Part shown: piece by piece, positions 16,477-60,242 of the stretch
How the letters are laid out: each line of letters starts with the position of its first letter
Numbering within the stretch: the stretch's first letter is position 1
NCBI GenBank assembly: GCA_021813325.1
Contig: JAKALA010000006.1
Location: 1 to 64,000 of the forward strand
DNA from: a bacterium
Lineage (GTDB): Bacteria; Verrucomicrobiota; Verrucomicrobiia; Limisphaerales; UBA11358
Length of the DNA: 64,000 nucleotides
Direction: 5' to 3'
Made by a program: the position numbers and the translations under genes
The notes under the pieces: model-generated
What the model was told of the DNA's origin: nothing
The model's input: the letters and a program-made list of their open reading frames with translations, nothing else
Databases searched by the model: none

Positions 16477-17367
16477 ATGAGCACACCGAAGAAAACTTTT
16501 CAAATGAGCTTCGGCGACTACAGGAGCGACGCCCACAACTGGATCACGCTCGCAAACGGTGAATTTTATCCCGACATTTTGCCAGAAGCCTGTGAGTTGT
16601 ATAAACCAGTGCTGGTCTTGTTTGGTCAGTATGTCCAATCGTCCGAGTCTTCCGCAGCCTTGTTCCGACAAATTTGCGAAGTGTCAGAAGGTTGGATGCG
16701 AGTTCAACTCGCCCGTGTGTTTCGTAAATACGTCAGCCCGAAAACGCCCGTCGAGATGTTGAAGAAGAAAACGTCATGCGAAAAAATCATCGAGCATTTC
16801 GGCGCCGAGTTCCGGCCCATTCACCAAGTTCAAAAAGCTTACAAGACTCGGCCAATTCCTGATGAAGCTTTGTGCGCAGTTCTCTGGGAATACAAAGACA
16901 GAGGCAAAAAGGGCTACGATCTCACCGCCAAACTTTTCAACGCGTTGCGCGAAAAATTTCCGACGTTGACGGTGAAAGGGCCGGAACGCGCGGGCAAAGA
17001 CATTCTCCTCCATGAGGTTTTTGCCGATTATCCGAATCCTTCTCGTCCGGTTGATTTCGTTATTTACAATGCGGACAAAACATCGGTGCTCGCAATTGGT
17101 CTCGCGCGCTACGATTCCGACCGGGGCGGTGCTCAAGAGGACGACCGGACGGGCGGCTATTCCAATTGCGCCAAAGAACTTTTTGCGTTCGCGAAACAGA
17201 AGAAGCTGCGAACCAAACTGATTTTTTTGAACGACGGGCCGGGTCTTTTGCTCGGTTCGATGTGGAATGATTACGCCAAACTTGAGCAGAGCCAGTCGGG
17301 AAAAATTTTAGTTCTGACGCTGCGAATGATTCCAGAGCGGTTGACGCTGGACTGGTTGCGGAGTTGA
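16477..17367 (+). CDS. Putative type II restriction endonuclease of the carB cassette
   Basis: This 296-residue soluble protein starts five bases after the carB stop. I do not recognise a named family. A plausible nuclease core is VDFVIYNADKTSVLAIG followed by ARYDSDRGGAQEDDR, where acidic residues flank a hydrophobic strand as in PD-(D/E)XK folds. A basic, helical region around GKKGYDLTAKLFNALREKF precedes it. The role as endonuclease is inferred mainly from position: it is immediately upstream of and overlapping a DNA methyltransferase. A remnant of a similar start lies at 19731 after the second carB tail. It might instead be another accessory component of the system. Confidence 0.6.
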   Translation: MSTPKKTFQMSFGDYRSDAHNWITLANGEFYPDILPEACELYKPVLVLFGQYVQSSESSAALFRQICEVSEGWMRVQLARVFRKYVSPKTPVEMLKKKTSCEKIIEHFGAEFRPIHQVQKAYKTRPIPDEALCAVLWEYKDRGKKGYDLTAKLFNALREKFPTLTVKGPERAGKDILLHEVFADYPNPSRPVDFVIYNADKTSVLAIGLARYDSDRGGAQEDDRTGGYSNCAKELFAFAKQKKLRTKLIFLNDGPGLLLGSMWNDYAKLEQSQSGKILVLTLRMIPERLTLDWLRS

Positions 17368-18800
17368 AGAATATGGCAACCGGTCTTCCAAAATCCAAAG
17401 CCAACGGTCGTGCGGAACATGTTCACAGATCTTTGCCCGCAGGCGAGACTCATCTGGAATATGAAGGGAAGAAAAGCGTCGCCGGAATACTTGCGAATTG
17501 TCCCAAGGCAAGTCTCACTCTGGCGCAACCGGCCAATCTCGCTCACGGCTGGGCGAACCGTCTCTACTTTGGCGAAAACCTGTCGGTTCTTGGAACGCTC
17601 TTGGACGATCCCTCCGTGCGAGGGAAAGTGTCGCTCGTTTACATTGACCCGCCGTATTCCACGCAGAGCGTTTTCGAGTCGCGCGACCAAAAGTTTGCCT
17701 ATCACGATTTGCTCTCTGGAGCGGCGTTCGTGGAATTTTTGCGCGAACGATTGGTTGTGCTCCGCGAATTGCTTTCCGGGCAAGGTTCAATTTACGTCCA
17801 CCTCGACGAGAACATGGCGTTTCCTATCAAGGTGGTGATGGACGAAATTTTCGGTGCGGAAAATTTCCGCAACTTCATCACACGGAAAAAGTGCAACACC
17901 AAGAACTACACGCGGCATAGCTACGGAAACATTTCTGACTATATTCTTTTTTACTCGAAAGGCGAAGACTACGCTTGGAATCGCCCCGTCGTTGCATGGA
18001 CGGAAGACACAGCCAAGAAGGAATACACCTACGTTGAAGCATCTACTGGACGGCGGTTCAAAAAAGTCCCGGTTCACGCGCCCGGCGTTCGGAATGGCGA
18101 AACCGGCAAACCGTGGCGCGGCAAATTGCCGCCGCCCGGCAAGCACTGGCAATTTTCGCCGAGCACTCTTGATGAAATGGATCGTCGCGGAGAAATCTTC
18201 TGGTCGTCCAACGGCAATCCACGTCGGAAAATCTACCTCGAAGATAGCAACGGAATCCCTGTCCAAGACATCTGGTTGGATTTCAAAGACGCCCACAACC
18301 AGAACATCGAAATCACTGGCTACCCAACAGAAAAAAATCTGGAAATGATGGAGCAAATCATCAGCGCATCGTCCAATCCGGGAGATTTGGTGTTGGATTG
18401 CTTTGCAGGTTCAGGAACAACGCTGGCCGCCGCTGGAAACTTGGGCCGTCACTGGATTGGCATTGATAACAGCAACGAAGCAATTGCCGCGACCGTGAAC
18501 CGCTTGCGCTTTGGCAGCCGTCCGATGGGAGATTACGTCACCAAAACGAGAATGCCCTCAGCGGAAAACCATTTGGAACTTTTTGGTAGCGGGGCGGACG
18601 TTGAGCAAAAAACAGAAACGAATGGATCTGCGGAAGATTTTTCCTTGTATTGCACCGAGTCCGCTGAATTGGAGTTGGAGCGTGATGACGTTTTTGCTTT
18701 GAAAGACAAGCCCACGAAACGGAAGCCGCTTAAACCCGTTCAAAAGGTCGTTTATAAAATTTCGCGGAAGCGTTTAGCCCGGCCGCAAAAGGCAGGTTGA
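17364..18800 (+). CDS. Site-specific DNA methyltransferase, beta-class N6-adenine/N4-cytosine type
   Basis: The 478-residue frame opens with TTG at 17364, overlapping the previous stop as TTGA; an ATG at 17373 is also possible. Motif IV is DPPYSTQSVF at about residue 95. SAM-binding motif I (LDCFAGSGTTLAAA) comes near residue 340, after the catalytic motif, which gives the beta-class order. GRHWIGIDNSNEAI follows. Such enzymes methylate the exocyclic amino group of adenine or cytosine and protect the host from the cognate nuclease. The C-terminal 100 residues are Lys-rich and may bind DNA. Confidence 0.9.
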   Translation: MKNMATGLPKSKANGRAEHVHRSLPAGETHLEYEGKKSVAGILANCPKASLTLAQPANLAHGWANRLYFGENLSVLGTLLDDPSVRGKVSLVYIDPPYSTQSVFESRDQKFAYHDLLSGAAFVEFLRERLVVLRELLSGQGSIYVHLDENMAFPIKVVMDEIFGAENFRNFITRKKCNTKNYTRHSYGNISDYILFYSKGEDYAWNRPVVAWTEDTAKKEYTYVEASTGRRFKKVPVHAPGVRNGETGKPWRGKLPPPGKHWQFSPSTLDEMDRRGEIFWSSNGNPRRKIYLEDSNGIPVQDIWLDFKDAHNQNIEITGYPTEKNLEMMEQIISASSNPGDLVLDCFAGSGTTLAAAGNLGRHWIGIDNSNEAIAATVNRLRFGSRPMGDYVTKTRMPSAENHLELFGSGADVEQKTETNGSAEDFSLYCTESAELELERDDVFALKDKPTKRKPLKPVQKVVYKISRKRLARPQKAG

Positions 18801-29315: not shown

Positions 29316-30023
29316 GTGCATATTTCATCAGCCACATTTCTTTGCAGCGCGCCAAACCTGGAGGCCTGTCCGGACGAGTCCCTTCCGGAATTTGCCTTCA
29401 TCGGCCGCTCCAACGTCGGCAAGTCATCGTTGTTGAACGTGCTGGCCGGCGAACAAGGTCTGGCGCGGGTTTCGCCCACGCCCGGATTTACCAAGCTGAT
29501 TAATATTTTCACGATCAACCAATGCTGGCGGCTGGTGGATCTGCCGGGCTACGGCTTCGCCGCCGGCTCGCGCAAGGACAGCAACCGCTTTAATCGCTCC
29601 GTGGCCCAGTATCTCAAAGGCCGGACCAATTTGAGTCTCGTTTTTGCGCTGATCGAATCGGCCCTGCCGCCACAGCCCATTGATATTGAATTCATCGAGT
29701 GGCTGACGCTGAATGAAGTGCCGTTTGTGCTGGTGTTTACCAAGATGGACAAGGCGCCCAAACCACAAGTGGACGCCAATATCGCCGCGTTCATGGAACG
29801 CATCTCCCAATGGTATGCGCAGCCGCCGGCGCATTTTCAATGTTCCGCCCAAACCGGAGCCGGGCGACAGGATTTGCTCGGCGTGGTCGATGAAATTTTA
29901 GACGCCATTCACGCGCAGACCGAGGCGGCACGCGAGATTCCCGCGGCACCGTGGGATGTAAACCCGCAAGCCAGGCCGGCGAAAACCCGCAAGCGCGGCC
30001 CGGACCTCCACCGCCCCTGGTGA
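29316..30023 (+). CDS. engB: Ribosome biogenesis GTPase EngB (YihA/YsxC)
   Basis: GTG at 29316 gives 235 residues starting VHISSATFLCSAPN, which fits the family start; the frame is open further upstream without similarity. GTPase motifs are G1 GRSNVGKSSLLN, G2 TPGFTKLIN, G3 DLPGYGFA, G4 TKMDK and G5 SAQTG. EngB assists assembly of the large ribosomal subunit. The last 25 residues are basic and Pro-rich. The neighbouring PaaK-like gene begins shortly afterwards on the same strand. Confidence 0.94.
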   Translation: MHISSATFLCSAPNLEACPDESLPEFAFIGRSNVGKSSLLNVLAGEQGLARVSPTPGFTKLINIFTINQCWRLVDLPGYGFAAGSRKDSNRFNRSVAQYLKGRTNLSLVFALIESALPPQPIDIEFIEWLTLNEVPFVLVFTKMDKAPKPQVDANIAAFMERISQWYAQPPAHFQCSAQTGAGRQDLLGVVDEILDAIHAQTEAAREIPAAPWDVNPQARPAKTRKRGPDLHRPW

Positions 30024-36309: not shown

Positions 36310-38802
36310 ATGAAACAAAAAATTGGAGAAGAAAATCATGTGGTTCGCTGTGGTGTTAGTTGGGTGGCGGGAGCATCGGGAGTCATGGCCTGTTTGATTG
36401 CAACAACACTCTTGTTTTCGTTTTTTTCAGCAGAGGCCCAAGCACCCGGCTCAATTGCCGGCAAAACATTCGGAGTAGGAATTACGGACGGGGACAATTC
36501 AATCTTTGCTGGCAGTGGATTCTATCTTTTTGTGCCAGCAAATTCAGGTAACGGCTATCAGGTGTTCAATGACGACGGCACAACAGAAACGGGCACCTAC
36601 GCCTCTTATTCAGCATCAGGTTCAACAGCGACAGCCACTTTGTCGGATTCTGCTTATCCTGGATTGCCAATTTATGGAAAATTTTTCTTTTCAGCACCAT
36701 TGTGGGGCACCAATTCATTAACGGCTGACTACTTGGGATATTCCGCCTACCAGCACGGCAATTTTATCATGTTCACGAATCCTGTTCCCAGCTCGATCTC
36801 TGGCCAGAACTTTTATGTAGATGTGCAAAGTGGCAATGGCCCGTATGCACCCAGTGGCGGTTTTGTATTTGCTACCGCCAATTCAGGGACTGCATACACA
36901 ATTACTGCTCTAAGTGCTGGAAGCACAAACAGCAGCGGCTCATACTCCTATTCAAGACCCAACACCACCTGCGGTGCGTTGCAATTGACCGACACGGTAG
37001 CTGGTCGCAGCAAAGTTTATATGGCATTCACTAATTCGACTTCCGGTGGTTATTACTTGACCTCGTCCAACGGCTATCAGTCCGGCTATATAACGCTGTT
37101 AAATTCACAAGCACCTTCAAGCATTGCTGGCAGCACGTTTATTGCCGCTGTGTCCACCGGAACATCGCCGTTTGCTTCCGGCGGTTATTTTCTTTTTCTC
37201 CCGGCAAGCTCCGGAAATAACTACCAACTCATTGGGATTGGCAATGTCGCGGGCAGCAGTGGCACCTACTCTTATTCATGCTCGGGTTCTGCCGGAACGG
37301 TAAGTTGGGCCGACAGTCTCAACGGTTCGGTTAAAGGAAATTTTTTTTATTTCAGCCCGCTGGATGGAAGCTATGCCTTGTCAGCAGGTTCTTCAGGTCA
37401 ATATACGCAGGCGGGAGATTTTGCAGTGCTCACCAATCCGGCTCCGAGTTCTATATCTGGGCAAAGCTTTTACATGGTAATAACAAATGGCGCTTACCCC
37501 TATGCCGACAATGGCAGATTTATTTTTTCTACGAAACTTTCAGGTAACGGTTACTCCATAACATCCCTTAGCGACAGTGCTTTGAATAGCACTGGCACCT
37601 ATTCTTATTCAAGGCTTAACACAACCTGCGGCGGCATCCAATTGACCGATTATGTCGCTGGCGCCAGCTCCGTATATGTTGCATTTTCAAACTCAATTTA
37701 TGGTGGCTATGTGTTAACTCAGCCTTCCTCTGGCGGCTTTCAAGTTGGATCGGTAACTCCTTTGAATACTGAGATAACAATTACTTCGCCGACCAGTTCA
37801 TCCAGCTACCAGGCTACTTCTGGAAATTTAAATGTGAGTGGCACTGCCAGCGATACTCTTGGAATCGCTAAAATCACTTGGAGCAATAACCGAGGCGGAA
37901 ACGGCATCGCCACTGGAACAACATCGTGGATAGTGAATGGCATCAGTTTGCAAGCAGGCACCAATGTAATTACGCTTACGGCTTACGACACTGTAAGCAA
38001 TGCGGTTCTAGCTATTCTCACAGTTACCTACAATCCGCCAGACGCAATTCCCCCCAATCTCACTATTACTTCACCAACAACCGGCCTAACTTATGTCACC
38101 AACGTCAGCAATGTTTATCTTGGTGGCTCAGCCAGCGACAATGTTGGCGTTAGCCAAATAACTTGGAGCAATAATCGCGGCGGTAGCGGTGTCGCAACTG
38201 GCACATCCACATGGAATATTGCTGACGTTATCCTGCAAACGGGAACAAATATTATCTCTGTTACCGCGCACGATGCCGCTGGTAACAGCAGCTATTCGGC
38301 TTTGACAATAATTTATGAGGTCAAACCACCAACAATAACGATCACATCACCAACGACCTCTTCTGTTTACACCAATTATTCAGCAAACATTAGTCTTGGC
38401 GGCACGACAGCGGATAATGTTGGTGTTGTCCAAGTAAGTTGGAGCAACAGTCGAGGTGGTAGTGGCACAGCGATTGGCACTGCTGCTTGGAATATTACAG
38501 GTATTCCTCTTCAACCTGGAGTAAACCTAATTGTCCTTGTGGCCCGGGACCAAGCAGGGAATACGAGTCAAGCTACCATAACGGTCATAAATGGGTCGCC
38601 GACTCTTGATTTCAAATATGCTGGAAATCAAATTCTGCTTATGTGGCCGACCAACGCATCTGATTATGCATTGCAATATTCGTCGGCGTTGTCGGCGACA
38701 GCCGTATGGTCGTCATCCTTTTCGCCAACAATTATTGGAAACAATTACGTTGTGACAAATTCAATTTTAAATGGGGCAAAGTTTTACCGCTTGAAGAAAT
38801 AG
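36310..38802 (+). CDS. Large exported repeat protein with Ig-like domains
   Basis: The 830 residues begin with a signal-like segment (GVMACLIATTLLFSFFSAEA). Four repeats of about 110 residues follow, each starting near PSSISGQSF or APGSIAGKTF and containing a GTYSYS-like strand. Three Ig-like repeats then occur with TITSPTTSSVY, GGTASDNVGV-like and ITWSNNRGGSGVATGTSTWN segments. The end is LLMWPTNASDYALQYSSALS and KFYRLKK. The gene is clearly AT-richer than its neighbours. It is probably a surface or secreted adhesin-like protein; no enzyme signature is seen. Confidence 0.85.
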   Translation: MKQKIGEENHVVRCGVSWVAGASGVMACLIATTLLFSFFSAEAQAPGSIAGKTFGVGITDGDNSIFAGSGFYLFVPANSGNGYQVFNDDGTTETGTYASYSASGSTATATLSDSAYPGLPIYGKFFFSAPLWGTNSLTADYLGYSAYQHGNFIMFTNPVPSSISGQNFYVDVQSGNGPYAPSGGFVFATANSGTAYTITALSAGSTNSSGSYSYSRPNTTCGALQLTDTVAGRSKVYMAFTNSTSGGYYLTSSNGYQSGYITLLNSQAPSSIAGSTFIAAVSTGTSPFASGGYFLFLPASSGNNYQLIGIGNVAGSSGTYSYSCSGSAGTVSWADSLNGSVKGNFFYFSPLDGSYALSAGSSGQYTQAGDFAVLTNPAPSSISGQSFYMVITNGAYPYADNGRFIFSTKLSGNGYSITSLSDSALNSTGTYSYSRLNTTCGGIQLTDYVAGASSVYVAFSNSIYGGYVLTQPSSGGFQVGSVTPLNTEITITSPTSSSSYQATSGNLNVSGTASDTLGIAKITWSNNRGGNGIATGTTSWIVNGISLQAGTNVITLTAYDTVSNAVLAILTVTYNPPDAIPPNLTITSPTTGLTYVTNVSNVYLGGSASDNVGVSQITWSNNRGGSGVATGTSTWNIADVILQTGTNIISVTAHDAAGNSSYSALTIIYEVKPPTITITSPTTSSVYTNYSANISLGGTTADNVGVVQVSWSNSRGGSGTAIGTAAWNITGIPLQPGVNLIVLVARDQAGNTSQATITVINGSPTLDFKYAGNQILLMWPTNASDYALQYSSALSATAVWSSSFSPTIIGNNYVVTNSILNGAKFYRLKK

Positions 38803-38853
38803 CCCCTCAATGTCCGGGTAGGCACTGGGCCTTGAGATAGCAGTTAGCGTCTG

Positions 38854-38879
38854 ATTTCGACGTTAAATTATCGTCGAAA
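38854..38879. other. Short perfect hairpin after the repeat-protein gene
   Basis: TTTCGACG at 38854 pairs with CGTCGAAA at 38872, leaving a ten-base AT-rich loop. There is no T tract, so termination is uncertain. Confidence 0.35.
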
Positions 38880-38899
38880 CGGATACGTTGGCCATTGCA

Positions 38900-39011
38900 G
38901 CTAGTGTGCTGTAACAGTCCCAGCTTTACAATGGCTGGCGGACCGAATGCGGATGCCGAAAGCCCAATAAAATTACGAACTGTAAAGATTTAACTGTTAC
39001 ATAACACTAGC
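38900..39011. repeat. MITE-like element with 19-bp terminal inverted repeats
   Basis: GCTAGTGTGCTGTAACAGT at 38900-38918 matches the reverse complement of 38993-39011 at 17 of 19 positions. Inside, CTTTACA and TGTAAAG are a second inverted pair. TA dinucleotides at both ends (38902 and 39008) fit the TA target of IS630/Tc1-type elements. The 110-bp body has no open frame. Confidence 0.65.
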
Positions 39012-39023
39012 TAACTCCTTTAC

Positions 39024-41204
39024 TCAAGTTAAGGAGGAAAGACTTGTTGGCTTGTCGGTAATTATTTCGCTGGTGGGGCTGACCTTCAAGACGGCCAGGC
39101 AAGCTTTGGCCGTGGCCGGATCGTTCAGGCAAATCGCGCCGCTGCGTATTCGTGGATTTGGCCGGCCTTCCATTTGCAACGGCCATCGCTGGCTCAACGA
39201 ACCGGCGTAGGCGGAAAAATCTTCCAAGCCTCCGGCGCGCAACTGGGCAACATTCACCAACTGAAACGCTCCATAACTGTTCTGGCTAACCTGCCGCATC
39301 AGCTCCACCAGCACGCGGCCCATCGTGTAGCGTGGATTGATCTCGACGACCGGTTTTAATTTCGGCGTGCCATCGGTGTCGCGATAGACAAACGCATCAA
39401 TCCCCAACGGACCTGTGAAGTCAACTGCTTGAAGTTCGGTTTCGAGCCGGGCAAAGAGCCGGTGATAAAATTTCAGCAAGAGGCCGGAGACATCTGCCTG
39501 CATTTTGAAAAGGGAGATAATTTTTGCGGGAATACGTTTGTGGTGATGCGGTTCCGCAAAATTGGCCACAAATTGCCCGCGCGAATCTGCCATCAAACCC
39601 GTAAAGCCGCACAGCTTCAGCCCGCGTTCCGACATTTCCAACTGAACGGAAAAATCGGCCAGCCGTTCCAGCCAGGGTTCCACCACAAGTTCACGCCGGT
39701 TGAAAAAAGCATTTTCCATCCAGCGAAGTTGATTTGGCAAAATCTCCGGCTCAAACAACCGCAACGCATTACTGCCCGCCACGCCGAACGATTCTTTGAC
39801 TACAATCGGATGATGCCCGCGTGAACGGATTTTGGCGACGGCCGCCAGCGCCTCGCTCAGTGAATGAACTGCGGCGCCAACTTCGTTTTCACCGCAAAGG
39901 TATGGAGCGCAGCCCTTTCCGCGCCATTCCGTGATAGAAGTGGCGGCGGCGGGCAGAGGACTGCCGGCCCTACCCGCCAAAATCCGCCGCAAAAAATCAG
40001 CGCTCCACGCCTTGGAATAGAGCTGGGCGATCTTCTGGTTGAAGCGGCTTTTATCGGCGCGCTGCTCGCCATTGACGCTGGCGAACAGGGGTTTGAGCAA
40101 ATCGAAACTGTCCGGCCCCCAGGCCCACGGGCGCAATGCGCCGAGTTTGCGGGTTTGCAAGCGTGTCAGATCCGAGGCGTCGGCAAATTCCGGAAGAGGA
40201 AAACCGGCCTGCTTGATGCCGCTGAGAAATTCCATGCCCGGTTTGTGATTCACCAGCACAATGTCATCCTGACGGCAGAGAAATTGCGGCAGATTTTCCA
40301 GGTCGTGCGCCAGTTGGGCTTGATGTTTGGTGGGGTTGAACTTTTTCCCCTCGCCAATGCGCCCTTCCGAAAAGGCATTGAAAACAAAAACACTCGGCGT
40401 GCGGCCCTTGGATTGCGAATAGACGTTGAGTTGCGAGATGAAATGTTCATCCAGTCCGGCAGCCTTGCGTCCGGCAATATTGAGCGTAAATCCCTTGGCG
40501 CGCTGCGGCGAGAGCGGAAACTTCAAGGTGCGACAAAACGCGTCCCAGTCCGATTCACCGGGGTTCTTCCAGCGGCGAAACCATTTCAAACCGTAGGCCA
40601 CATGCCCGATTTCATCGCGATAAATTTTTTGCAGCAGGCTGGCTGAATCGGTGTCGCCCACCGTGGCAAAGCGGTTGCCGTAGTGACCGGCGAAATCCAG
40701 GTTGGCCTGCTCGAAGGTCAGGCAAAGCCCGGCGACGTAGTCGATGGGATGTTCCATCGGCGACACGCAACGCCAGAAATAGCCGCTGACCGGAAAATCA
40801 CCGAGTTGCACGCCACAAACGGCCATGCGTTGCATGTAAAGCCGCGTATGTTCCTGTTCATCCTTGAGCGTTTCGAAGACGCCTTTGCGGAACGCGGGCG
40901 GGGCCCCGGGAAATTTGAGCAGCACCAGCGCCATCAGTTCCGTGGCGAGCAGTTCATGGTTGCCAAAAAAGTGAAGGAGTTTGCCGCGCTCGGTCGTTTC
41001 TTCCAGACGATGTAATCCGGGAAATACGCTTTTGCCGGTGGCGTGTGGCTTAAACTGCAAGTTGGCCGGCCGACCCGGAGCCGCCGGCGCGATCAGCGCC
41101 GGGCCGGGATGCTCATCGGTAAGGGCATCCGGCGTCCGAAGTTTTTCCTCCAGCGTCGTGGCAAACAAAACTTGCTCGGCAAATTCGCGCAGTTCCATTT
41201 TCAT
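39024..41204 (-). CDS. DUF455 ferritin-like protein fused to an ATP-grasp domain
   Basis: From the Met at 41204 (another at 41198) the protein has about 726 residues. The N-terminal 300 residues match the DUF455 ferritin-like fold: NHELLATELMALVLLKF, LKDEQEHTRLYMQRM, FEQANLDFAGHYG and IYRDEIGHVAYGLKWFRRW provide regularly spaced Glu/His ligands for a di-metal site. The C-terminal third is ATP-grasp-like, with VVKESFGVAGSNALRLFEPE, then LVVEPWLERLADF and LKPVVEINPRYTMGR. The middle part is less clear. The combination suggests a metal-dependent oxidation linked to ATP-dependent ligation. Its substrate is unknown. Confidence 0.8.
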   Translation of the reverse strand: MKMELREFAEQVLFATTLEEKLRTPDALTDEHPGPALIAPAAPGRPANLQFKPHATGKSVFPGLHRLEETTERGKLLHFFGNHELLATELMALVLLKFPGAPPAFRKGVFETLKDEQEHTRLYMQRMAVCGVQLGDFPVSGYFWRCVSPMEHPIDYVAGLCLTFEQANLDFAGHYGNRFATVGDTDSASLLQKIYRDEIGHVAYGLKWFRRWKNPGESDWDAFCRTLKFPLSPQRAKGFTLNIAGRKAAGLDEHFISQLNVYSQSKGRTPSVFVFNAFSEGRIGEGKKFNPTKHQAQLAHDLENLPQFLCRQDDIVLVNHKPGMEFLSGIKQAGFPLPEFADASDLTRLQTRKLGALRPWAWGPDSFDLLKPLFASVNGEQRADKSRFNQKIAQLYSKAWSADFLRRILAGRAGSPLPAAATSITEWRGKGCAPYLCGENEVGAAVHSLSEALAAVAKIRSRGHHPIVVKESFGVAGSNALRLFEPEILPNQLRWMENAFFNRRELVVEPWLERLADFSVQLEMSERGLKLCGFTGLMADSRGQFVANFAEPHHHKRIPAKIISLFKMQADVSGLLLKFYHRLFARLETELQAVDFTGPLGIDAFVYRDTDGTPKLKPVVEINPRYTMGRVLVELMRQVSQNSYGAFQLVNVAQLRAGGLEDFSAYAGSLSQRWPLQMEGRPNPRIRSGAICLNDPATAKACLAVLKVSPTSEIITDKPTSLSSLT

Positions 41205-41285
41205 CCAGCTTGGCACCGGCGGCGGATTTTGGCGAGGCTGGAGCGGCCTGGAAGAAATCGCGAGGTGGTTTTCGCGGCATTCAGC

Positions 41286-41325
41286 CAAAAAAATTTGCCC
41301 GGCCAGGAATTTTCCCGACCGGGCG
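41286..41325 (-). terminator. Terminator of the DAHP synthase gene
   Basis: GCCCGG at 41297 and CCGGGC at 41319 enclose an inner GGAA/TTCC pair. The A-rich run at 41287-41293 becomes a U tract on the minus strand, downstream of aroF and upstream of the DUF455 fusion gene. Confidence 0.75.
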
Positions 41326-41399
41326 ATTATTTTTATATTTTAAAAATTCGCTCAACCCGCCATGCCGCGTTCAACGTGGCGCGGTTCGCGCCATCCGCA

Positions 41400-42455
41400 T
41401 CACGCCGCCTTCTTCTTCAGCATCTCATGGCCCCAGCGCAGCATCCGTTCCGTGGCTTCCCAGCCGACGCAGGAATCCGTGATGCTGACGCCGTAACGCA
41501 AATCCGCCTTGGTTTTCGGGATGGGCTGGCTGCCTTCGTTCAGATGGCTTTCCACCATCAGGCCGACCAGCGATTTGGTGCCGCCCACCCGCTGTTCGAT
41601 CACGCTGCGCCACACTTCTTCCTGCTTGGCGAATTTCTTCTCCGAATTCGCGTGGCTGCAATCCACCATCAACACCGGCGCAAGTTTTTCGGATATCAAC
41701 TTGTCTTCCGCCGCCTTGATGCTGGCGGCGTCGTAATTCGTCATGGCGCGGCCGCCGCGCAACACCACATGTGCATGCGGATTCCCGGAGGTGCGGACAA
41801 TGCTGGTCACGCCGTCCTCGTTCATGCCCAGAAAACTGTGCGGATGCCGTGTGGCGCCCATGGCGTCAATGGCCACTTGCAGGCTGCCGTCGGTGGCGTT
41901 CTTCAAGCCCACCGGCATGGACAGGCCGCTGGCCATTTCGCGATGGGTCTGGGATTCCGTGGTGCGCGCGCCAATGGCCGCCCAGGTCACCAGATTGGCG
42001 ATGTATTGCGGCACGATGGGGTCCAGAAATTCCGTGGCCGCCGGCAGGCCCAGGCCGTTGATTTGCTGCAATAATTTGCGCGCGATGATCAAGCCCGTTT
42101 CAATATCCTGCGAGCCGTCCAGGTGCGGATCATTGATCAGCCCTTTCCAGCCAATGGTGGTGCGCGGCTTCTCGAAATATACCCGCATCACAATCTCCAT
42201 CTGATCGGCCAGTTCCCGCTGCAATTTGCCCAGCCGTTCGGCGTATTCCAACGCGCTCTTTTCGTCGTGGATGGAACAGGGGCCGATCACCACCAGCATC
42301 CGCGAATCCTCCTGGTTGAGGATGCGGATGACGCGTTCCCGCGCCAGCGCCACCGTGTCATTCACCGATTCTGGCGTGGGCGATAACGCCTTCAACGCGC
42401 TCGGCGAAAGCAACGGCACAATTTCTTTAACATGTAAGTCCTGCGTGCGATACAT
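41400..42455 (-). CDS. aroF: 3-deoxy-7-phosphoheptulonate synthase, class I
   Basis: This 351-residue enzyme has the class I pattern: LVVIGPCSIHDEKSALEYA, RVYFEKPRTTIGWKGLINDP, GLPAATEFLDPI, WAAIGARTTESQTHREMASG, VLMVDCSHANSEKK and SITDSCVGWE. It condenses phosphoenolpyruvate with erythrose 4-phosphate to open the shikimate pathway. Which aromatic amino acid inhibits it cannot be read. A 16-bp palindrome lies 88 bp upstream of the start codon. Confidence 0.95.
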   Translation of the reverse strand: MYRTQDLHVKEIVPLLSPSALKALSPTPESVNDTVALARERVIRILNQEDSRMLVVIGPCSIHDEKSALEYAERLGKLQRELADQMEIVMRVYFEKPRTTIGWKGLINDPHLDGSQDIETGLIIARKLLQQINGLGLPAATEFLDPIVPQYIANLVTWAAIGARTTESQTHREMASGLSMPVGLKNATDGSLQVAIDAMGATRHPHSFLGMNEDGVTSIVRTSGNPHAHVVLRGGRAMTNYDAASIKAAEDKLISEKLAPVLMVDCSHANSEKKFAKQEEVWRSVIEQRVGGTKSLVGLMVESHLNEGSQPIPKTKADLRYGVSITDSCVGWEATERMLRWGHEMLKKKAA

Positions 42456-42542
42456 GGGATTAGTATACCGTATCCGCGAAATGCGGAAAGCCGAAACCCG
42501 CCGGCGTCAAAGAGGTTCTCCCGCCCCGCAGCCGATGCGTAT

Positions 42543-42558
42543 TGCCATAATTATGGCA
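42543..42558. promoter_or_regulatory. 16-bp perfect palindrome upstream of aroF
   Basis: TGCCATAATTATGGCA is a perfect inverted repeat. It lies 88 bp before the aroF ATG on the minus strand, where a repressor could bind. The binding protein is unknown. Confidence 0.45.
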
Positions 42559-42586
42559 CTTCAAATCAATTTTGGCCCATGGCCCT

Positions 42587-42650
42587 GAGGCCCAAAGTCA
42601 TTCGGTGGGGTGAGAGTCCTCGCAAGCCGTCTTAAGAGAAAATGGGCCTC
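42587..42650. other. 64-base inverted-repeat segment, possible structured leader
   Basis: GAGGCCCA at 42587 pairs with TGGGCCTC at 42643 around a 48-base loop. It lies between argH and aroF on their common strand. It could be a leader, a terminator relic or a small RNA; no known riboswitch motif was recognised. The remaining intergenic sequence to 42781 shows nothing clear. Confidence 0.3.
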
Positions 42651-42781
42651 GGACAAACCACACCGCAACCGGTCCAGTTAGATTTTTCAATGATTTGAGT
42701 CCATCTGGCTGCCCATCGGCCAAGAATATCCTAATCGAAAAACTGCGGCGTTTGTCGGTTTTCATATCATAGTCTTTCCTC

Positions 42782-54624: not shown

Positions 54625-55413
54625 TCAAAGGTTATTCCGGGCAGCGCGTTCGCCGGCCAGCACGGCGGCTCCCAAGGCACCGGTGAATTGCGGTTGAGAA
54701 ACCACGCCTACTGGACACGCCAAAACTTCTTCCAAGGCCCGCGCCATGCCGGGCTGCAACGCCACCCCACCCGTGAAATAAACCGGGCTGGCCACGGATC
54801 TTCCGGCTAACGCGGCCACGCGTGTCGCGATGGCTTTTTGCACCCCGGCCACGACGTCGGCCAGCGGCTTGCCCTCGGCGAGCAGACCGATGATTTCCGT
54901 CTCGGCAAAAACCACACACATATTGCTGATGAGCGCGGGTTTTTGACTTTGATGGGCCAGTTCGGAAAGCGTGCTCCAATTCATGTTCAGCCGCGTGGCG
55001 ACCATTTCCAAAAAACGTCCGGTGCCCGCCGCGCAGCGGTCGTTCATGGCAAAATCGCGCACGCGCCCGCCGTTTTCCAGGCTGATGACTTTGCTGTCCT
55101 GCCCGCCGATCTCGATGATGGTGCGCGTTTCGGGCGCCAACTGGTGGACGCCGCGGGCGTGACAGGTGATCTCGGTGATGGTCGTGTCGGCAAACCGGAT
55201 GGCGTTGCGTCCGTAGCCCGTGGCGATGACGCCGGAAATCTGCGCGCGTTCCAGACCTGCCTCAAACAGGATTTTATCAAATAGCTCCGTGGCCAGGCGC
55301 TCCTGTTCCACACCCTGATCGCTGACACCCGCCGCGAGAATTTTGCCCGTGTCGGTGTCAAGTAACACCGCTTTAATCGAGCGCGATCCCGCATCTATTC
55401 CGGCGCAAAGCAT
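54625..55413 (-). CDS. Acyl-CoA dehydratase activase (BadF/HgdC-type ATPase)
   Basis: The 262-residue ASKHA ATPase has GIDAGSRSIKAVLLD, ATGYGRNAIRFAD, IIEIGGQDSKVI and NDRCAAGTGRFLEM, then NMCVVFAETEIIG. The Cys in the last two motifs bind a shared [4Fe-4S] cluster between two subunits. Such activases use ATP to inject low-potential electrons into dehydratases of the HgdB/BcrC group. It is the last gene of the five-gene operon and the only energy source in it. Confidence 0.93.
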   Translation of the reverse strand: MLCAGIDAGSRSIKAVLLDTDTGKILAAGVSDQGVEQERLATELFDKILFEAGLERAQISGVIATGYGRNAIRFADTTITEITCHARGVHQLAPETRTIIEIGGQDSKVISLENGGRVRDFAMNDRCAAGTGRFLEMVATRLNMNWSTLSELAHQSQKPALISNMCVVFAETEIIGLLAEGKPLADVVAGVQKAIATRVAALAGRSVASPVYFTGGVALQPGMARALEEVLACPVGVVSQPQFTGALGAAVLAGERAARNNL

Positions 55414-55415
55414 GA

Positions 55416-55475
55416 AAAAGGCTAAGGGCTAAAGGCTGAAGGCTAAAGTGAATTCGGTTTTAAGCCTTTAGCCTT
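55416..55475. repeat. Heptamer inverted-repeat cluster 1
   Basis: GGCTAAG, GGCTAAA and GGCTGAA units at 55419-55448 face AAGCCTTTAGCCTT at 55462-55475. The stop codon and last codons of the HgdB-like gene fall inside it. Confidence 0.8.
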
Positions 55476-56846
55476 GTTTCTTGCGGTTTCCACCAAGGCT
55501 TCCAGACGCGAGGTCATTGTTGGCAGCATGGCATCGCAAACCGGTGGTATTTCCATTTCCACCACGGGAATGCCAAGTTCCTGCCGGACCATTTCGCGGA
55601 TGCTTTCGCCTTCGCGCGCGCAATGGCTGGCGCCAGGAATGCGCGATATGACCACGGCCTCCGCATCATAAGTCTGGCATTCGCGAATGATGCGTTTCGC
55701 GCGATCACTGGCCGGGCCAACCATCGGGTCGGCCAGGGCCGTCCGCGCCAAAGCTTCCAAGGGCGGCAGGCTTTCGGGGATCAAGTCCAGCGCATGGGAA
55801 AACATAAAATCTGTGCCGCAAAGACGGCCGCCAACATCTTCCAGCAAATTCATGGCGCGCAGGTCAGCAACGGGATTTACCCAAAAAATCCGCACGGCAT
55901 CTGGCGGGAGCACGAATTGGTTTTGCTGCATCCGCCGTTGCGCTTCGGCCAACAATTCACCGAGCACCAATCCCGCCTCTGGACGGTCGGAACAGAAATG
56001 GATTGCCAGCATTTCCGCGATAAGCATTTCCAGCGCTGGCAGCGGGGCGGCGGGCGCGGAGTAAACGGCTTGCCGAAGATCGGCGAGAATTTGGCGGATG
56101 TGATTGGCGGCACGGATACCGTCAGTTAGCGCCGAGTCACCCAGACTTTTTCCGGCAAGCTGGCCCAGTGCGTCCGCCACGCGCTGCAATTCCGCCCGCA
56201 CCGCCTCCACCTGGCTTCGTGGCGCCAGCAGTTTTCCCGGCAGTTCACAGGAGGTTTCGCCAACGGCCGGCGCGCGCCGGCGCGGGATTTCCCACCAGAA
56301 CACCGGATGCCCGCGATGCTCGAGCCGTTGTGCGATGGCCGAAAAATCGTCGCAAACTGCGCCGGTGCTGCAGATGATCAGTTCGGGTTTCGGGAAGTGT
56401 TCGCCGTTCTCAAACGCCGGCAGCATGGCGCGCACCGGACAAAACGAAGCATCAACGCCCATCGCCGCGGCCTGCTGCAACAACTTGTCGCTGCATTCCA
56501 TGAGGCATGGCGTCCACCATGCGCCGTCGGGATAAAACGCCCGCACGCCAGGCAACGCGTAAGCCATCACCGGCACAGTGCCGAGGTCTTTCATGGTGCC
56601 GACGATTTTGTCACCCGCCGTTCTGGCCTGATGGAGCCGCGAATTTTCGGTGAGAAAAAAATTCCAAAGACGCAGCGCGGCGGGCGAGTTGTCGAATTGC
56701 AACTGTTCGAGGCGAAAATCCTTTTCCAACTCCACATGCCGCCGAAGCGGTCCGCCGTAAAAAGGTTCGCGCCGGCCGGCCTGCTGAAGCTGAAGATGGC
56801 GCTCCCCCCAGTCGGCGAGGCTCAGTTTGCGGGGCGCGGCGAACAT
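55443..56846 (-). CDS. 2-hydroxyacyl-CoA dehydratase-type subunit (HgdB/BcrC family)
   Basis: The 467-residue protein carries Cys-containing segments TPCLMECSDKLLQQAAAMG, FCPVRAMLPAFENGEHFP, and LIICSTGAVCDDFSAIAQRL, with GASHCAREGESIREMVRQEL near the end. These resemble the iron-sulphur subunits of 2-hydroxyacyl-CoA dehydratase or benzoyl-CoA reductase families. It has probably a [4Fe-4S] site fed by the activase downstream. The last residues (KAKGLKPNSL) are encoded in the heptamer repeat. The substrate is unknown. Confidence 0.8.
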   Translation of the reverse strand: MFAAPRKLSLADWGERHLQLQQAGRREPFYGGPLRRHVELEKDFRLEQLQFDNSPAALRLWNFFLTENSRLHQARTAGDKIVGTMKDLGTVPVMAYALPGVRAFYPDGAWWTPCLMECSDKLLQQAAAMGVDASFCPVRAMLPAFENGEHFPKPELIICSTGAVCDDFSAIAQRLEHRGHPVFWWEIPRRRAPAVGETSCELPGKLLAPRSQVEAVRAELQRVADALGQLAGKSLGDSALTDGIRAANHIRQILADLRQAVYSAPAAPLPALEMLIAEMLAIHFCSDRPEAGLVLGELLAEAQRRMQQNQFVLPPDAVRIFWVNPVADLRAMNLLEDVGGRLCGTDFMFSHALDLIPESLPPLEALARTALADPMVGPASDRAKRIIRECQTYDAEAVVISRIPGASHCAREGESIREMVRQELGIPVVEMEIPPVCDAMLPTMTSRLEALVETARNKAKGLKPNSL

Positions 56847-56850
56847 GGGA

Positions 56851-56923
56851 AAAAGCTAAAAGCAAAAGTTGATACGCTAAACACAATTTTGCTTTCAGCC
56901 TTTAGCCTTCAGCTTTTAGCATT
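56851..56923. repeat. Heptamer inverted-repeat cluster 2
   Basis: AGCTAAA and AGCAAAA units at 56854-56867 face GCTTTCAGCCTTTAGCCTTC and AGCTTTTAGC at 56891-56920. The neighbouring gene ends within it with LKAEG and TAA. Confidence 0.8.
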
Positions 56924-57867
56924 TCAATAAATGCCTGAAGGCGGGTTTGGTCGCGGGGCGAGCGGCCGGTGGCTTCGCCGGCTTCCAGCAATAGCACCGG
57001 CAGGCCGAACGCTTCGCGCAAGCTTTGCGCCTCGGCACGCCAGAGGTCGCAGCCCGTGAAATGCCAGAGCACCAGCCCGCGCACGCCGCGCGCTGGCAGA
57101 CGCGGTTTCAGCCAGTCATAGAGCCGCGTGTTGGGCCGCTGAAATGCGTCGGTAATGTGATCGAAATATCCGCTAGCCAGCGCTTCAAAAGGATCGCCCG
57201 CATCGACACCTTCCGGGCAAAGGCTGCGCTCGCCAGACTTGGTGGCATTGAGGGTCACGCGTCCTCCCGCTTGTTCCACGCTTTTGAACAGAGTCCAATC
57301 TGATTTAGGGAAAGCGCCGCCGATCAGCGCCAGCGAAATGCGGTCGTCTGACGGGCAGGTTGAAATTTCAGAGCAGGTGCCGTCGCAATGATACGCGGCA
57401 ACGGCTTCGGCCAAAGAACGCGCGTTGGCACTGGGCGCAATCGCACGCAGATTTCGCCGGGCTTCACCTGCGCGGCGAATTTCCTGCCAAAGCGATTTGG
57501 TGTCGGGCGCCGCACCACCCATTTCCTGAAGGAATCGGCCCAGCCGCCTCAGTTCATCGCAATATATTTGCCTCGCCGCCGGTGTCGGCGTGGCGGGCAG
57601 GTTGAACAAAAATACCCGCGACTGGCCGCGAAATTTGCCTTCATCATAACCACGCCGCATTTGATCGCAGGCGGAGGTGAAGACGACTGCATCGGCAGGG
57701 TGGGTTTCGGCAAAACGGACGGTGGTTTCGGCAACCGCGCAAACGCCGGCGGAGAGCGCTACGGGCGCATTGCTCAATCTTTCCTCCAACCAGAGCGGCC
57801 GCGATGTCAGTCCATGAGCCCGAATCCATTCGGCGGGAATCCACGGGCTGGTCAGGAAGACGTTCAT
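56902..57867 (-). CDS. Second 2-hydroxyacyl-CoA dehydratase-type subunit
   Basis: The 321 residues start with FLTSPWIPAEWIRAHGLTSR, the entry motif of HgdB/BcrB-like proteins (approach to the substrate pocket). GVCAVAETTVRF and VVFTSACDQMRRGYDEG carry candidate cluster Cys, and HFTGCDLWRAEAQSLREAFG lies near the end. It pairs with the HgdB-like protein next to it, as alpha and beta subunits do in this family. Its C-terminal LKAEG comes from the heptamer repeat. Confidence 0.8.
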   Translation of the reverse strand: MNVFLTSPWIPAEWIRAHGLTSRPLWLEERLSNAPVALSAGVCAVAETTVRFAETHPADAVVFTSACDQMRRGYDEGKFRGQSRVFLFNLPATPTPAARQIYCDELRRLGRFLQEMGGAAPDTKSLWQEIRRAGEARRNLRAIAPSANARSLAEAVAAYHCDGTCSEISTCPSDDRISLALIGGAFPKSDWTLFKSVEQAGGRVTLNATKSGERSLCPEGVDAGDPFEALASGYFDHITDAFQRPNTRLYDWLKPRLPARGVRGLVLWHFTGCDLWRAEAQSLREAFGLPVLLLEAGEATGRSPRDQTRLQAFIEMLKAEG

Positions 57868-57872
57868 TTATC

Positions 57873-57973
57873 AAGGCTGAAGGCTAAATGCTAAAGGCTG
57901 AAGGTCAAATCGGCTGTGTCCGGCCTGGGCGCTGAATGGTGTTTTTAGCATTCAGCTTTTAGCCTTTAGCATT
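57873..57973. repeat. Heptamer inverted-repeat cluster 3
   Basis: GGCTGAAGGCTAAATGCTAA and AGGCTGAAGG at 57875-57904 face TTAGCATTCAGCTTTTAGCC and TTTAGCATTT at 57945-57974. It is the longest spacing of the four clusters. Confidence 0.8.
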
Positions 57974-58769
57974 TTTCCGCAACGATCAGCCCTTGGATGA
58001 CTTTGCCGGCTTGCGCGAGGGATTGGATGAATTTCATTTCGCCAACCAGTTCGGCCGCCAGGGCAGTGTCAAAACCGATGATTTTCAGCGCGTCGTAAGT
58101 GAGTTGCTTTTCGAGCATGTCGAGATACAGCGGCATTTGGCTGGCAAAGCGTCCGGTGTCTTGCGCCAGTTGCGCGCTACAGCCGCTGGCCTCCAGATGC
58201 GAGCGGTATTCGGCCTGTGAAAGCACGTTGGGAAATTTCATGAACGTGAGATAGCGCGCCGCCTCGGTGTCCGTCATGTCGGTCGGGCCAAGCATCCAAT
58301 CGGTGAAGGCGATTTTGCCGCCGGCTTTGACGATGCGCGCCGCTTCAGTGATCATGGCCCGCTTGTCTTCGACGTAGCACCAGGCGTCCTCGCCCCAGAC
58401 AAAATCAAATTGGCCCGGCGGCAGGCCGCAATCGCTGACGTTGGCTTCGACGAACGTGATTTTATCCGCCAAGCCTTCGGCGGCGACGCGCTGGCGGCCG
58501 AGCTGAATCATGGCGGGCGTGGCATCCACGCCGGTCATGTGCGCCACTTTTTGAAACTGCACCAGAAACTTCAGGCCCGCCCCGGCGCAGCAACAGAAAT
58601 CCACGCCGCGCGAACCTTCAGCGATACCGGCGCAGCGCGCGAGTTCCAGGGAGGATTGCAAACCGCCGAGGTGGATTTGTTCGCCCATGAGGAGCTCCCA
58701 AAGTTTTCCTTCGGCACCGGAATAAACCGCTTGAACATTGGACAGATGAATTTGTGGGGCGGATTTCAT
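57966..58769 (-). CDS. Class I SAM-dependent methyltransferase of the dehydratase operon
   Basis: The 267-residue protein has VDFCCCAGAGLKFLVQF as SAM motif I, with three consecutive Cys where one usually sees Gly-containing residues. It continues with MTGVDATPAMIQLGRQRV, FDFVWGEDAWCYVEDKRAMI and AGGKIAFTDWMLG, similar to glycine/sarcosine- or ubiquinone-type methyltransferases. The gene lies between iron-sulphur subunit genes and probably modifies the same substrate or product. Its stop codon lies in the heptamer repeat. Confidence 0.85.
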   Translation of the reverse strand: MKSAPQIHLSNVQAVYSGAEGKLWELLMGEQIHLGGLQSSLELARCAGIAEGSRGVDFCCCAGAGLKFLVQFQKVAHMTGVDATPAMIQLGRQRVAAEGLADKITFVEANVSDCGLPPGQFDFVWGEDAWCYVEDKRAMITEAARIVKAGGKIAFTDWMLGPTDMTDTEAARYLTFMKFPNVLSQAEYRSHLEASGCSAQLAQDTGRFASQMPLYLDMLEKQLTYDALKIIGFDTALAAELVGEMKFIQSLAQAGKVIQGLIVAEKC

Positions 58770-58770
58770 A

Positions 58771-58866
58771 AAAGGCTAAATTCTAAAGGCTGAAGGCTGA
58801 AACAAGTTTGTCGCAAGAACGCGTGCATATGCTTTGGCATTTAGTTTTCAGCCTTTAGCCTTTGCT
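58771..58866. repeat. Heptamer inverted-repeat cluster 4
   Basis: AAAGGCTAAATTCTAAAGGC and TGAAGGCTGAAA at 58771-58802 face TTTAGTTTTCAGCCTTTAGC and CTTTGCTTTG at 58840-58869. The end of the double-cubane-type gene (KAKAKG and TGA) is formed by it. Confidence 0.8.
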
Positions 58867-60068
58867 TTGATGGTTTCAAATAACGCCTCTACCCGCGCTG
58901 AAATGCGGGCCGAATCCGACGGCGAATAGTCGGTGGTGATTTTCAGATAGGGCAGCTTCAATTCCTCTTCCGCCAGCTTGCGGACTTGGATGGACTCAAT
59001 GTCGTAAGTCAGGCACGCCTGCCAGATGATTTCGATGACGCAATCCGGCCGGAACTTGGCGGACAAGGAGCGGAGCGTGTCGAAACGGCCGGAATTCGGC
59101 GTCAGCACTGAGCAGGGCAGATGATAGTATTTTTTGGCGATGGCGCGGATAGGGGCCGGGTCAGCCGCGTCCACGTCTTCGAGAATCGGCTTGAGGCCGG
59201 TGCAGTTTTCCATGGCCACGACCACCGCGCCGGCGTTTTCGATTAATTCCAGCACGCGTTCCGCGCCATGCACGATCGGCACGCCGGTAAGCAGCACGCG
59301 AATTTCTCGTGGCAGCGACGCCTTCGTCGCAGTCACATTCGGCGACGAGGCGTCGCCGCCACTGGCCGACAAAGATTTCAGCCCGTTTTCATATTGCTGC
59401 AAATCAGCTTCGATGCCCGAGATGATGCTCTTGAATTCGATCAACTGCCGTCCGGTCAATGGCGGCTGGTCCTGCGTCATCAAGTCGGCCAGTTGCCGAC
59501 GCAAGCCGCGCTCGCGATTCATCAACTGAATGGCGGCGCGAAGTTTTTCTTCCGTAATCTGCGTGTTAAATCGTTCTTCGAGATGCGCCTTGAACTTGTG
59601 GAGTTCCTGGGTCCAATGCTCCAGCGCGGCGGCGTTTTCAGCTTTGTGCGGCAGTTCGAGCACATACATGGGCTTGGCAGCGCCCATTAGCTCGAACATT
59701 TTCTTTTTGCCATCGCAGGTGGTCTCGGCCACGACCAGATCAGCCCAGTTCAGGAATGGATTTTTACCGGTGACTTGATAGCCGAACGTGGACTTGATGA
59801 GCGGACAGAGATTGGCCGGAAGGAATTGTTCTGCCGGGGGAATGGTCGCCGCCGAACCGCCGCACAGGCAAACCGGCACGGCGCCGGCGGCCAGAATGAT
59901 TTCGCGCGGGGTGAATTCACACATGATGCCCACCACCGGACGACCCTGCGCCCTGGCCGCCTCGGCGTAGTCGTAGCAATGATCAATCATGTCCTCAAAC
60001 CAACGCAACGCAGCGCCGGCGCTGGCATTGCTGACGCTCGGTTGCGGCCCCGAAGAGCGACATTCCAT
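58848..60068 (-). CDS. Double-cubane-cluster-type reductase, HgdB/BcrC family
   Basis: ATG at 60068 gives 406 residues; TTG at 60128 is another possible start. VVGIMCEFTPREIILAAGAV, PVCLCGGSAATIPP, FLPANLCPLIKSTFGYQ, VVAETTCDGKKKMFELM, AMENCTGLKPILED and IIWQACLTYDIESIQV correspond to the Cys set of double-cubane anaerobic reductases. Those proteins hold an [8Fe-9S] cluster and reduce small substrates with ATP-driven electrons from an activase. It opens the operon, so it is likely the main catalytic component. Confidence 0.87.
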   Translation of the reverse strand: MECRSSGPQPSVSNASAGAALRWFEDMIDHCYDYAEAARAQGRPVVGIMCEFTPREIILAAGAVPVCLCGGSAATIPPAEQFLPANLCPLIKSTFGYQVTGKNPFLNWADLVVAETTCDGKKKMFELMGAAKPMYVLELPHKAENAAALEHWTQELHKFKAHLEERFNTQITEEKLRAAIQLMNRERGLRRQLADLMTQDQPPLTGRQLIEFKSIISGIEADLQQYENGLKSLSASGGDASSPNVTATKASLPREIRVLLTGVPIVHGAERVLELIENAGAVVVAMENCTGLKPILEDVDAADPAPIRAIAKKYYHLPCSVLTPNSGRFDTLRSLSAKFRPDCVIEIIWQACLTYDIESIQVRKLAEEELKLPYLKITTDYSPSDSARISARVEALFETIKAKAKG

Positions 60069-60242
60069 AATGGTGATTGGCTTCAGCGGTTTTGGGATTG
60101 GCGAGGTCAGGAAATACTTCACAAGCAACGGAAAGTCAATGTCCTTGGACGTGCCGCGCAGGCGGGCGACAGTGCTTGACCGGCGGGTAACCTTTCACTT
60201 TCAACCCGTCAGGTAGTTGTGGCATAGTTCATCCCAATTCTG

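Follow-up and report, generated by a model that had tools for sequence, protein, structure and literature searches.

A single-chain fusion of a DUF455 domain with a predicted ATP-grasp ligase, conserved in Verrucomicrobiota

Introduction

In the first 64,000 nucleotides of the Limisphaerales contig JAKALA010000006.1 (the whole stretch that was analyzed, hereafter the window), one long ORF appears to join a domain of the DUF455 family (PF04305, presumably equivalent to COG2833) to an ATP-grasp ligase. Is this fusion genuine, and what reaction could a protein of this kind carry out? Ferritin-like proteins whose di-iron site has the E/ExxH/E/ExxH pattern serve either in the O2-dependent oxidation of substrates or in the handling of iron and peroxide, and ATP-grasp enzymes form acyl phosphates and couple them to amines or thiols. 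A search of the open-licence literature revealed no published function for DUF455 and no description of a ferritin-like or DUF455 domain fused to an ATP-grasp domain. The family is also tabulated in sea anemones (PMC6214176).

Results

Organization of the Fusion Gene

The gene lies on the minus strand, with an ATG at 41,204 and a stop codon at 39,024–39,026, and its features are summarized in Table 1. An alternative ATG at 41,198 (residue 3) corresponds to the start favoured by most relatives of the fusion, and frame 1 of the plus strand of the same interval is interrupted by stop codons. A total of 84 distinct loci were compared (from 92, after removal of 8 that hit a gene a second time); one open frame spans both domains at 77 of them and the remaining 7 reach a contig end, so the fusion is no assembly accident. 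The full protein was modeled by AlphaFold2 using 45 aligned relatives, with a mean pLDDT of 89.3 and a pTM of 0.81. The first-pass annotation of the window had described DUF455 joined to a C-terminal ATP-grasp domain in one chain, and this description was upheld, since both folds were predicted with high confidence.

Table 1. Features of the fusion gene and their positions in the window.
Feature	Position	Strand	Basis or remark
Complete DUF455/ATP-grasp fusion gene	39024..41204	(-)	726 aa plus stop
N-terminal ferritin-like DUF455 module (predicted), residues 1–268	40401..41204	(-)	Pfam match and model
Stretch with six candidate di-metal ligands, E84, E116, H119, E165, E198, H201	40602..40955	(-)	Invariance and helices
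Pre-ATP-grasp domain (predicted), approximately residues 270–385	40050..40397	(-)	PGM1 alignment from residue 270; boundary approximate
Low-confidence loop, residues 413–430, within the variable stretch 386–442	39915..39968	(-)	pLDDT, low identity
ATP-grasp catalytic domain (predicted), approximately residues 443–723	39036..39878	(-)	Predicted structure and invariant residues
VEINPR, residues 620–625, candidate Mg-binding E-x-N	39330..39347	(-)	Invariance and analogy

The N-Terminal DUF455 Half

The Pfam model of DUF455 matches residues 38–256 with 149.6 bits against a cut-off of 34.3 (E 1.5e-43), and a match at E ≤ 0.01 was found in all 54 aligned fused rows. Residues 1–268 modeled alone gave a pLDDT of 92.9 and a pTM of 0.91, with four long helices. 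The candidate ligands E84, E116xxH119, E165 and E198xxH201 sit on four successive helices (70–97, 103–129, 153–181 and 185–212) and are invariant in 54/54 fused rows, the window included, as well as in 58/58 rows of a separate N-terminal alignment. They are also invariant in a nine-row alignment in which three rows are stand-alone DUF455 proteins from alphaproteobacteria. Their order, E / ExxH / E / ExxH, is that of ferritins, and the intervals between them (32, 3, 49, 33 and 3) are, as we assume, close to those of bacterioferritin. E89 was considered as the first ligand and rejected because it is Asp in the three stand-alone proteins, whereas E84 is invariant and, by reasoning from the helices, fits the hairpin register. 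The first-pass annotation had proposed a di-metal-type domain, and a missing ligand set would have counted against it; at the sequence level, all six residues are present and invariant, and the fold was predicted with high confidence.

In structural comparisons of this half, a Dps-like protein tops the VIA list (Z 14.9, rmsd 2.7, 144 residues aligned), followed by aldehyde-deformylating oxygenases up to Z 14.7 (rmsd 3.3, 185 aligned), and bacterioferritins and rubrerythrin are listed as well, but a Z of about 14 for a helical bundle may reflect a common arrangement or chance, and families absent from the VIA lists stay possible. The Foldseek search gave no significant match (best E 0.1); its weak rows include UndA and other haem-oxygenase-like chains, and the Pfam assignment is DUF455. 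The EncFtn-like and TIGR04535 encapsulated-ferritin families matched weakly, below their cut-offs. Since the Foldseek result is not significant and the VIA scores may be due to chance, the predicted assignment to the ferritin-like four-helix bundles leans on DUF455 membership and the ligand pattern.

Compared with the DUF455 family, the fusion scores far over the cut-off and carries the same six ligands as stand-alone members. The three stand-alone alphaproteobacterial proteins, of 274, 284 and 275 aa, agree with the size of about 270 residues anticipated for free-standing DUF455 and have no ligase, whereas the fusion carries an additional ligase part of about 450 residues.

The C-Terminal ATP-Grasp Half

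In the C-terminal part of the window protein, no Pfam model exceeded its cut-off, the ATP-grasp-like ones included. DUF3182 (PF11379) reached 15.6 bits against a cut-off of 26 and was found at E ≤ 0.01 in 6 of the 54 aligned rows. A phmmer search of the fusion protein against PDB sequences gave no match at E ≤ 10, and the profile of the 54 rows had 7r8p/7r8q as its sole PDB match (E 0.012). The ATP-grasp identity is therefore based on the predicted structure. Residues 270–723 aligned in VIA with 3wvr_A, the peptide ligase PGM1 (Z 26.6, rmsd 3.1, 372 aligned), 8ynd_H, titled 'ATP-grasp peptide ligase' (Z 24.7, rmsd 3.2, 358 aligned), BesA 8yi6 (Z 23.2, rmsd 3.6, 373 aligned) and SAOUHSC_02373 7r8p (Z 22.6, rmsd 3.6, 331 aligned). 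These top ligases (3wvr, 8ynd, 8yi6 and 7r8p/q), which include a Streptomyces peptide ligase, span Z 22.0–26.6, and PurK and lower rows have Z ≤ 19.4. In addition, Foldseek matched the half to 8ynd_D with an E of 6.9e-14. Residues 270–723 are thus predicted to adopt an ATP-grasp ligase fold; the absence of such a fold, which would have contradicted the first-pass annotation, was not seen.

The pheganomycin peptide ligase PGM1 (3WVQ/3WVR) is the best structural match of the C-terminal half and is aligned from its first residue to its end, which suggests a PGM1-type pre-ATP-grasp plus ATP-grasp fold in the fusion, despite an identity of 13–17% and a non-significant profile match (E 0.76). PGM1 presumably has no ferritin-like domain, because nearly all of its 447-residue chain is aligned to the ligase half. 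BesA (8YI6) and SAOUHSC_02373 (7R8P/7R8Q), presumably both amino-acid ligases, appear to have the same ATP-grasp fold (Z 22.0–23.2); they are separate chains of 364–458 residues with 11–14% identity to the fusion. We take SAOUHSC_02373 to be LdmS, an Asp-Met ligase. The nearest structural relatives of this half can be read as peptide or amino-acid ligases. PGM1 itself joins a peptide to an unusual amino acid (PMC8939145).

The segment between the two domains, which had been singled out for structure prediction, turned out to consist of the predicted pre-ATP-grasp domain of the ligase and a short unreliable loop. The Pfam PreAtp-grasp model matched weakly in 2/54 rows. The pLDDT falls below 50 at residues 413–416, 418–420 and 422–430, and identity is low across residues 386–442.

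In the catalytic domain, K470, E509, D517, D603, E621, N623, R625 and R630 are invariant in 54/54 rows and in the 45-row alignment, and K470, D517, D603, E621, N623 and R625 are invariant in all 16 ATP-grasp rows that include the Parabacteroides, Prevotella and Streptomyces relatives. K470 as the ATP lysine and D603 with E-x-N as the Mg binders are candidate roles, which we assume for K470, D603, E621 and N623 by analogy with the ATP-grasp superfamily. A second candidate ATP lysine, K398, is invariant in the 54 rows, nearly invariant in the 45 rows and not kept in the Bacteroidota relatives. The VEINPR stretch had been called a metal motif. Its conservation was confirmed, since E621, N623 and R625 do not vary either when three free-standing relatives of two further phyla are added; the metal role is proposed by analogy. 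Judging by these residues and the N-terminal ligands, both active sites are apparently complete, and nothing points to a dead domain.

Free-standing relatives of the ATP-grasp half were found in Parabacteroides, Prevotella, Bacteroides and Phocaeicola, presumably all anaerobes. The Parabacteroides distasonis protein WP_122246558.1 (402 aa, 'hypothetical protein') matches residues 297–693 of the fusion with an E of 5e-10 and has the same K, D and E-x-N-x-R but no DUF455 half. Two Bacteroidota loci (L094:7914-9122 and L095:7953-9068) encode the ATP-grasp half alone as a 'hypothetical protein' of about 370–400 aa without a Pfam family over the cut-off, and an incomplete annotation table lists no DUF455 gene within about 8 kb of either. 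A distant relative, annotated as hypothetical and with a PreAtp-grasp match below the cut-off, was found in a Streptomyces plasmid cluster (L096:7620-8816) that also contains radical SAM, acyl carrier protein, Gfo/Idh oxidoreductase and condensation-domain genes.

Comparison of the Two Halves

The 54-row alignment covers 54 of the 84 distinct loci and leaves out 7 contig-end fragments (L075, L082, L086, L087, L089, L090 and L091) and 23 near relatives, most of which are present in the 45-row or 58-row alignments. In this alignment, the mean identity to the window protein is 66% for the DUF455 half and 46% for the catalytic domain. Trees of the two halves have 14/51 splits in common and a patristic correlation (r) of 0.755; 21 pairs of splits conflict at SH-aLRT 90 and 4 pairs at 95. 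Groups f40, f2 and f2+f5, which for loci of the GTDB scan are our own lumping and not taxonomy, were recovered by both trees with SH-aLRT 84–100. Groups f5 and f3 and the large group of the window were recovered by the C-terminal tree only (f3 at 58). Judged from these sequences, swapping of halves between close relatives is neither proven nor excluded by the trees.

Distribution and Co-Occurrence with COX1

The first-pass annotation had suggested a search for the same fusion. The whole protein matched in 22 of the 387 sampled Verrucomicrobiota genomes, always as one fused ORF. DUF455 alone as the query scored above 100 bits in 22/387 genomes, in all cases in ORFs of 648–776 aa, and the ATP-grasp module as a separate query returned the same 22 ORFs in these genomes. 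Neither half was found apart in the 387 genomes (DUF455 at more than 100 bits, and the ATP-grasp module) among the best initial candidates scored per genome, which numbered 2 for the whole protein, 6 for DUF455 and 4 for the ATP-grasp module. The two-domain fusion is thus a protein conserved within one phylum, as far as searched. A GTDB scan limited to close relatives gave 62 loci, most of them titled Verrucomicrobia-type or Limisphaerales, and no match to the fusion was found in phages by tblastn.

DUF455 exceeded the Pfam cut-off in 40/387 genomes, with all matches beyond the fusions below 60 bits. These weak matches were considered as possible stand-alone halves and set aside, since a different protein, of about 440–480 aa and apparently with two ferritin-like segments, was read in 7 of the 8 loci (L118–L125). 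Such proteins are encoded, for example, at L118:628-2052 (plus strand) and L124:1408-2793 (minus strand), mostly in genomes of group f5, and none is among the longest ORFs listed for L122. Judging by eye, their neighbours include Gfo/Idh-like oxidoreductase and phytanoyl-dioxygenase-like genes (L124) and symporter-like genes (L118 and L123). One fusion genome (G235) contains an extra 36.8-bit DUF455 match in a 216-aa frame, which could be a weak stand-alone DUF455.

DUF455-like proteins are also present in alpha- and betaproteobacterial records. In two of the three alphaproteobacterial records, the stand-alone gene is located directly downstream of a peroxiredoxin gene (L126:5342-6618 and L128:5183-6495), and in Azospirillum it adjoins cysQ.

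A COX1-family gene was found in 22/22 fusion genomes against 140/387 overall, or in 11/11 fusion genera against 81/197, and no fusion was found among the 247 genomes that gave no COX1 match. The hypergeometric p values, 6e-11 by genome and 4e-5 by genus, ignore relatedness. Such a pattern is consistent with a reaction that requires O2, but shared ancestry confounds it, aerobic lineages have much else in common, and NO reductases also fall within the COX1 family.

Gene Neighbourhood

ORFs of at least 80 aa were compared all-against-all at 81 loci (62 from the GTDB scan, 18 further loci and positions 30,001–52,000 of the window), the target being found in 80. No family lies consistently beside the fusion gene, and the counts are slightly inflated because L057, L146 (and L002) are, judging by length, the same contig. 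The commonest neighbour, an ABC-F-like ATPase named by eye, was rejected as a partner because it occurs at only 16/80 loci, at varying distance and on varying sides. No redox partner consistently adjoins the gene at the 80 loci. A search for a precursor peptide among small ORFs of at least 18 aa within 600 bases on each side revealed none that is widely conserved at these loci: the best are common to 6 other loci upstream and 5 downstream, and these resemble fragments of helicase-like and ABC-F-like neighbours; the 24 listed resemble fragments or other frames of adjacent genes. PGM1-type systems differ in this respect, since the fusion has no adjoining precursor-like small ORF or cluster at the 80 loci. 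Rfam at gathering thresholds found no RNA element at positions 38,700–42,700 of the window.

Without a conserved neighbour or small ORF at these loci, there is no sign of a gene cluster. The first-pass annotation had envisaged a multi-gene pathway; its check for conserved neighbours was negative and this part of its proposal was not borne out. Because such a pathway leaves no genomic trace, the fusion would act by itself or together with partners encoded elsewhere.

Judging by eye, the fusion gene of the window has a DAHP-synthase-like gene upstream of it in the same orientation (41,400–42,455) and a gene for a repeat-rich protein next to it on the opposite strand (36,310–38,802). Elsewhere, positions 54,625–60,128 (minus strand) contain genes read by eye as an acyl-CoA dehydratase activator, three proteins of the 2-hydroxyacyl-CoA dehydratase / benzoyl-CoA reductase kind and a methyltransferase. 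A restriction-modification-type pair, with a DPPY-motif DNA methyltransferase behind a gene of another kind, was noted by eye at 16,477–18,800 (plus strand).

Discussion

These characteristics allow us to propose, with roughly even confidence, that the fusion is a putative self-contained bifunctional ligase-oxidase that depends on O2 and acts on amino acids or peptides. The ATP-grasp half would activate a carboxylate as an acyl phosphate using ATP and Mg and would couple the activated group to an amine, for which an amino acid or a short peptide is the likeliest candidate. The DUF455 half, with a di-metal and probably di-iron site, would use O2 to oxidize (hydroxylate, desaturate or cleave) the substrate or the product of the ligase, both halves acting sequentially on one small molecule. 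The metal identity, the oxidase activity, the ligase substrates and the joint action on one molecule are what we infer for this protein. Since both halves share a chain and conserved partner genes are missing from the neighbourhood, the fusion probably makes its product alone, and it may do so from common metabolites. One point against this reading is that the halves differ in conservation and that their trees conflict locally.

The coupling of diiron oxidases with ATP-grasp enzymes provides a strong precedent by analogy. One report counts 1447 HDO diiron oxidases with an ATP-grasp ligase nearby and at least 25 types of cluster; MboA, whose cluster has two such ligases, makes an alkyne on a peptide (PMC13185094). 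An older survey predicted operons that combine ATP-grasp ligases with a diiron oxygenase from the haem-oxygenase superfamily (PMC2922099). In clusters of the mangotoxin mboABCDEF type, a diiron oxidase and ATP-grasp amino-acid ligases serve one peptide product, as proposed for the fusion; there, the oxidase has a haem-oxygenase-like fold and separate proteins are encoded in a cluster, whereas the fusion has a predicted DUF455/ferritin-like domain, one chain and no cluster (PMC13185094). Thus, the combination of an oxidase with an ATP-grasp enzyme is a known theme, from which the fusion departs in the predicted fold of its putative oxidase, in its single chain and in the lack of a cluster.

Among other explanations, the ferritin-like half could serve to handle or sense iron or peroxide, protecting the ligase or switching it in response to the oxygen or iron state; we regard this as unlikely, although it is the most probable of the alternatives. 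The peroxiredoxin genes beside two of the three alphaproteobacterial stand-alone DUF455 genes and the Dps-like protein at the top of a VIA list that includes bacterioferritins speak for such a role. However, the Azospirillum copy adjoins cysQ instead, and within the fusion conservation is highest in the DUF455 half, as expected for the binding of a specific substrate.

It is somewhat less probable again that a macromolecule, a tRNA or a protein end, is modified, with an amino acid that the ligase attaches and the di-metal domain hydroxylates. Analogies exist in MiaE, which hydroxylates tRNA, and RimK, which tags a ribosomal protein, and the lack of a consistent neighbour is common for free-standing modifying enzymes. 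Nevertheless, occurrence in just 22 of 387 genomes of the phylum is a thin distribution for a core modification of RNA or the ribosome, and the closest structural matches of the ATP-grasp half, PGM1 among them, are ligases that we read as small-peptide ligases. Least probable, and in our view improbable, is that the halves catalyze unrelated reactions and the fusion merely fixes their co-expression: each does occur alone elsewhere, DUF455 in alphaproteobacteria and the ATP-grasp module in Bacteroidota, but neither was found apart (DUF455 at more than 100 bits) among the best candidates in the 387 genomes and three groups are recovered by both trees.

For the DUF455 family, the bifunctional ligase-oxidase would be a first predicted role, namely that of an O2-dependent oxidase within an ATP-grasp ligase, which in aerobic Verrucomicrobiota would form a one-protein, cluster-free pathway to an oxidized amino-acid or dipeptide conjugate; in this specific form, we put it forward as a tentative prediction. 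The conserved fusion with an ATP-grasp domain narrows the likely chemistry of DUF455 to amino-acid or peptide-like substrates and gives the family a testable partner in the form of a single protein for assay. If the prediction is true, mining based on neighbourhood, as in the screen of PMC13185094 for oxidases encoded close to ATP-grasp genes, would be expected to miss the fusion, and an oxidase-plus-ligase pathway would be contained in one gene, without a cluster.
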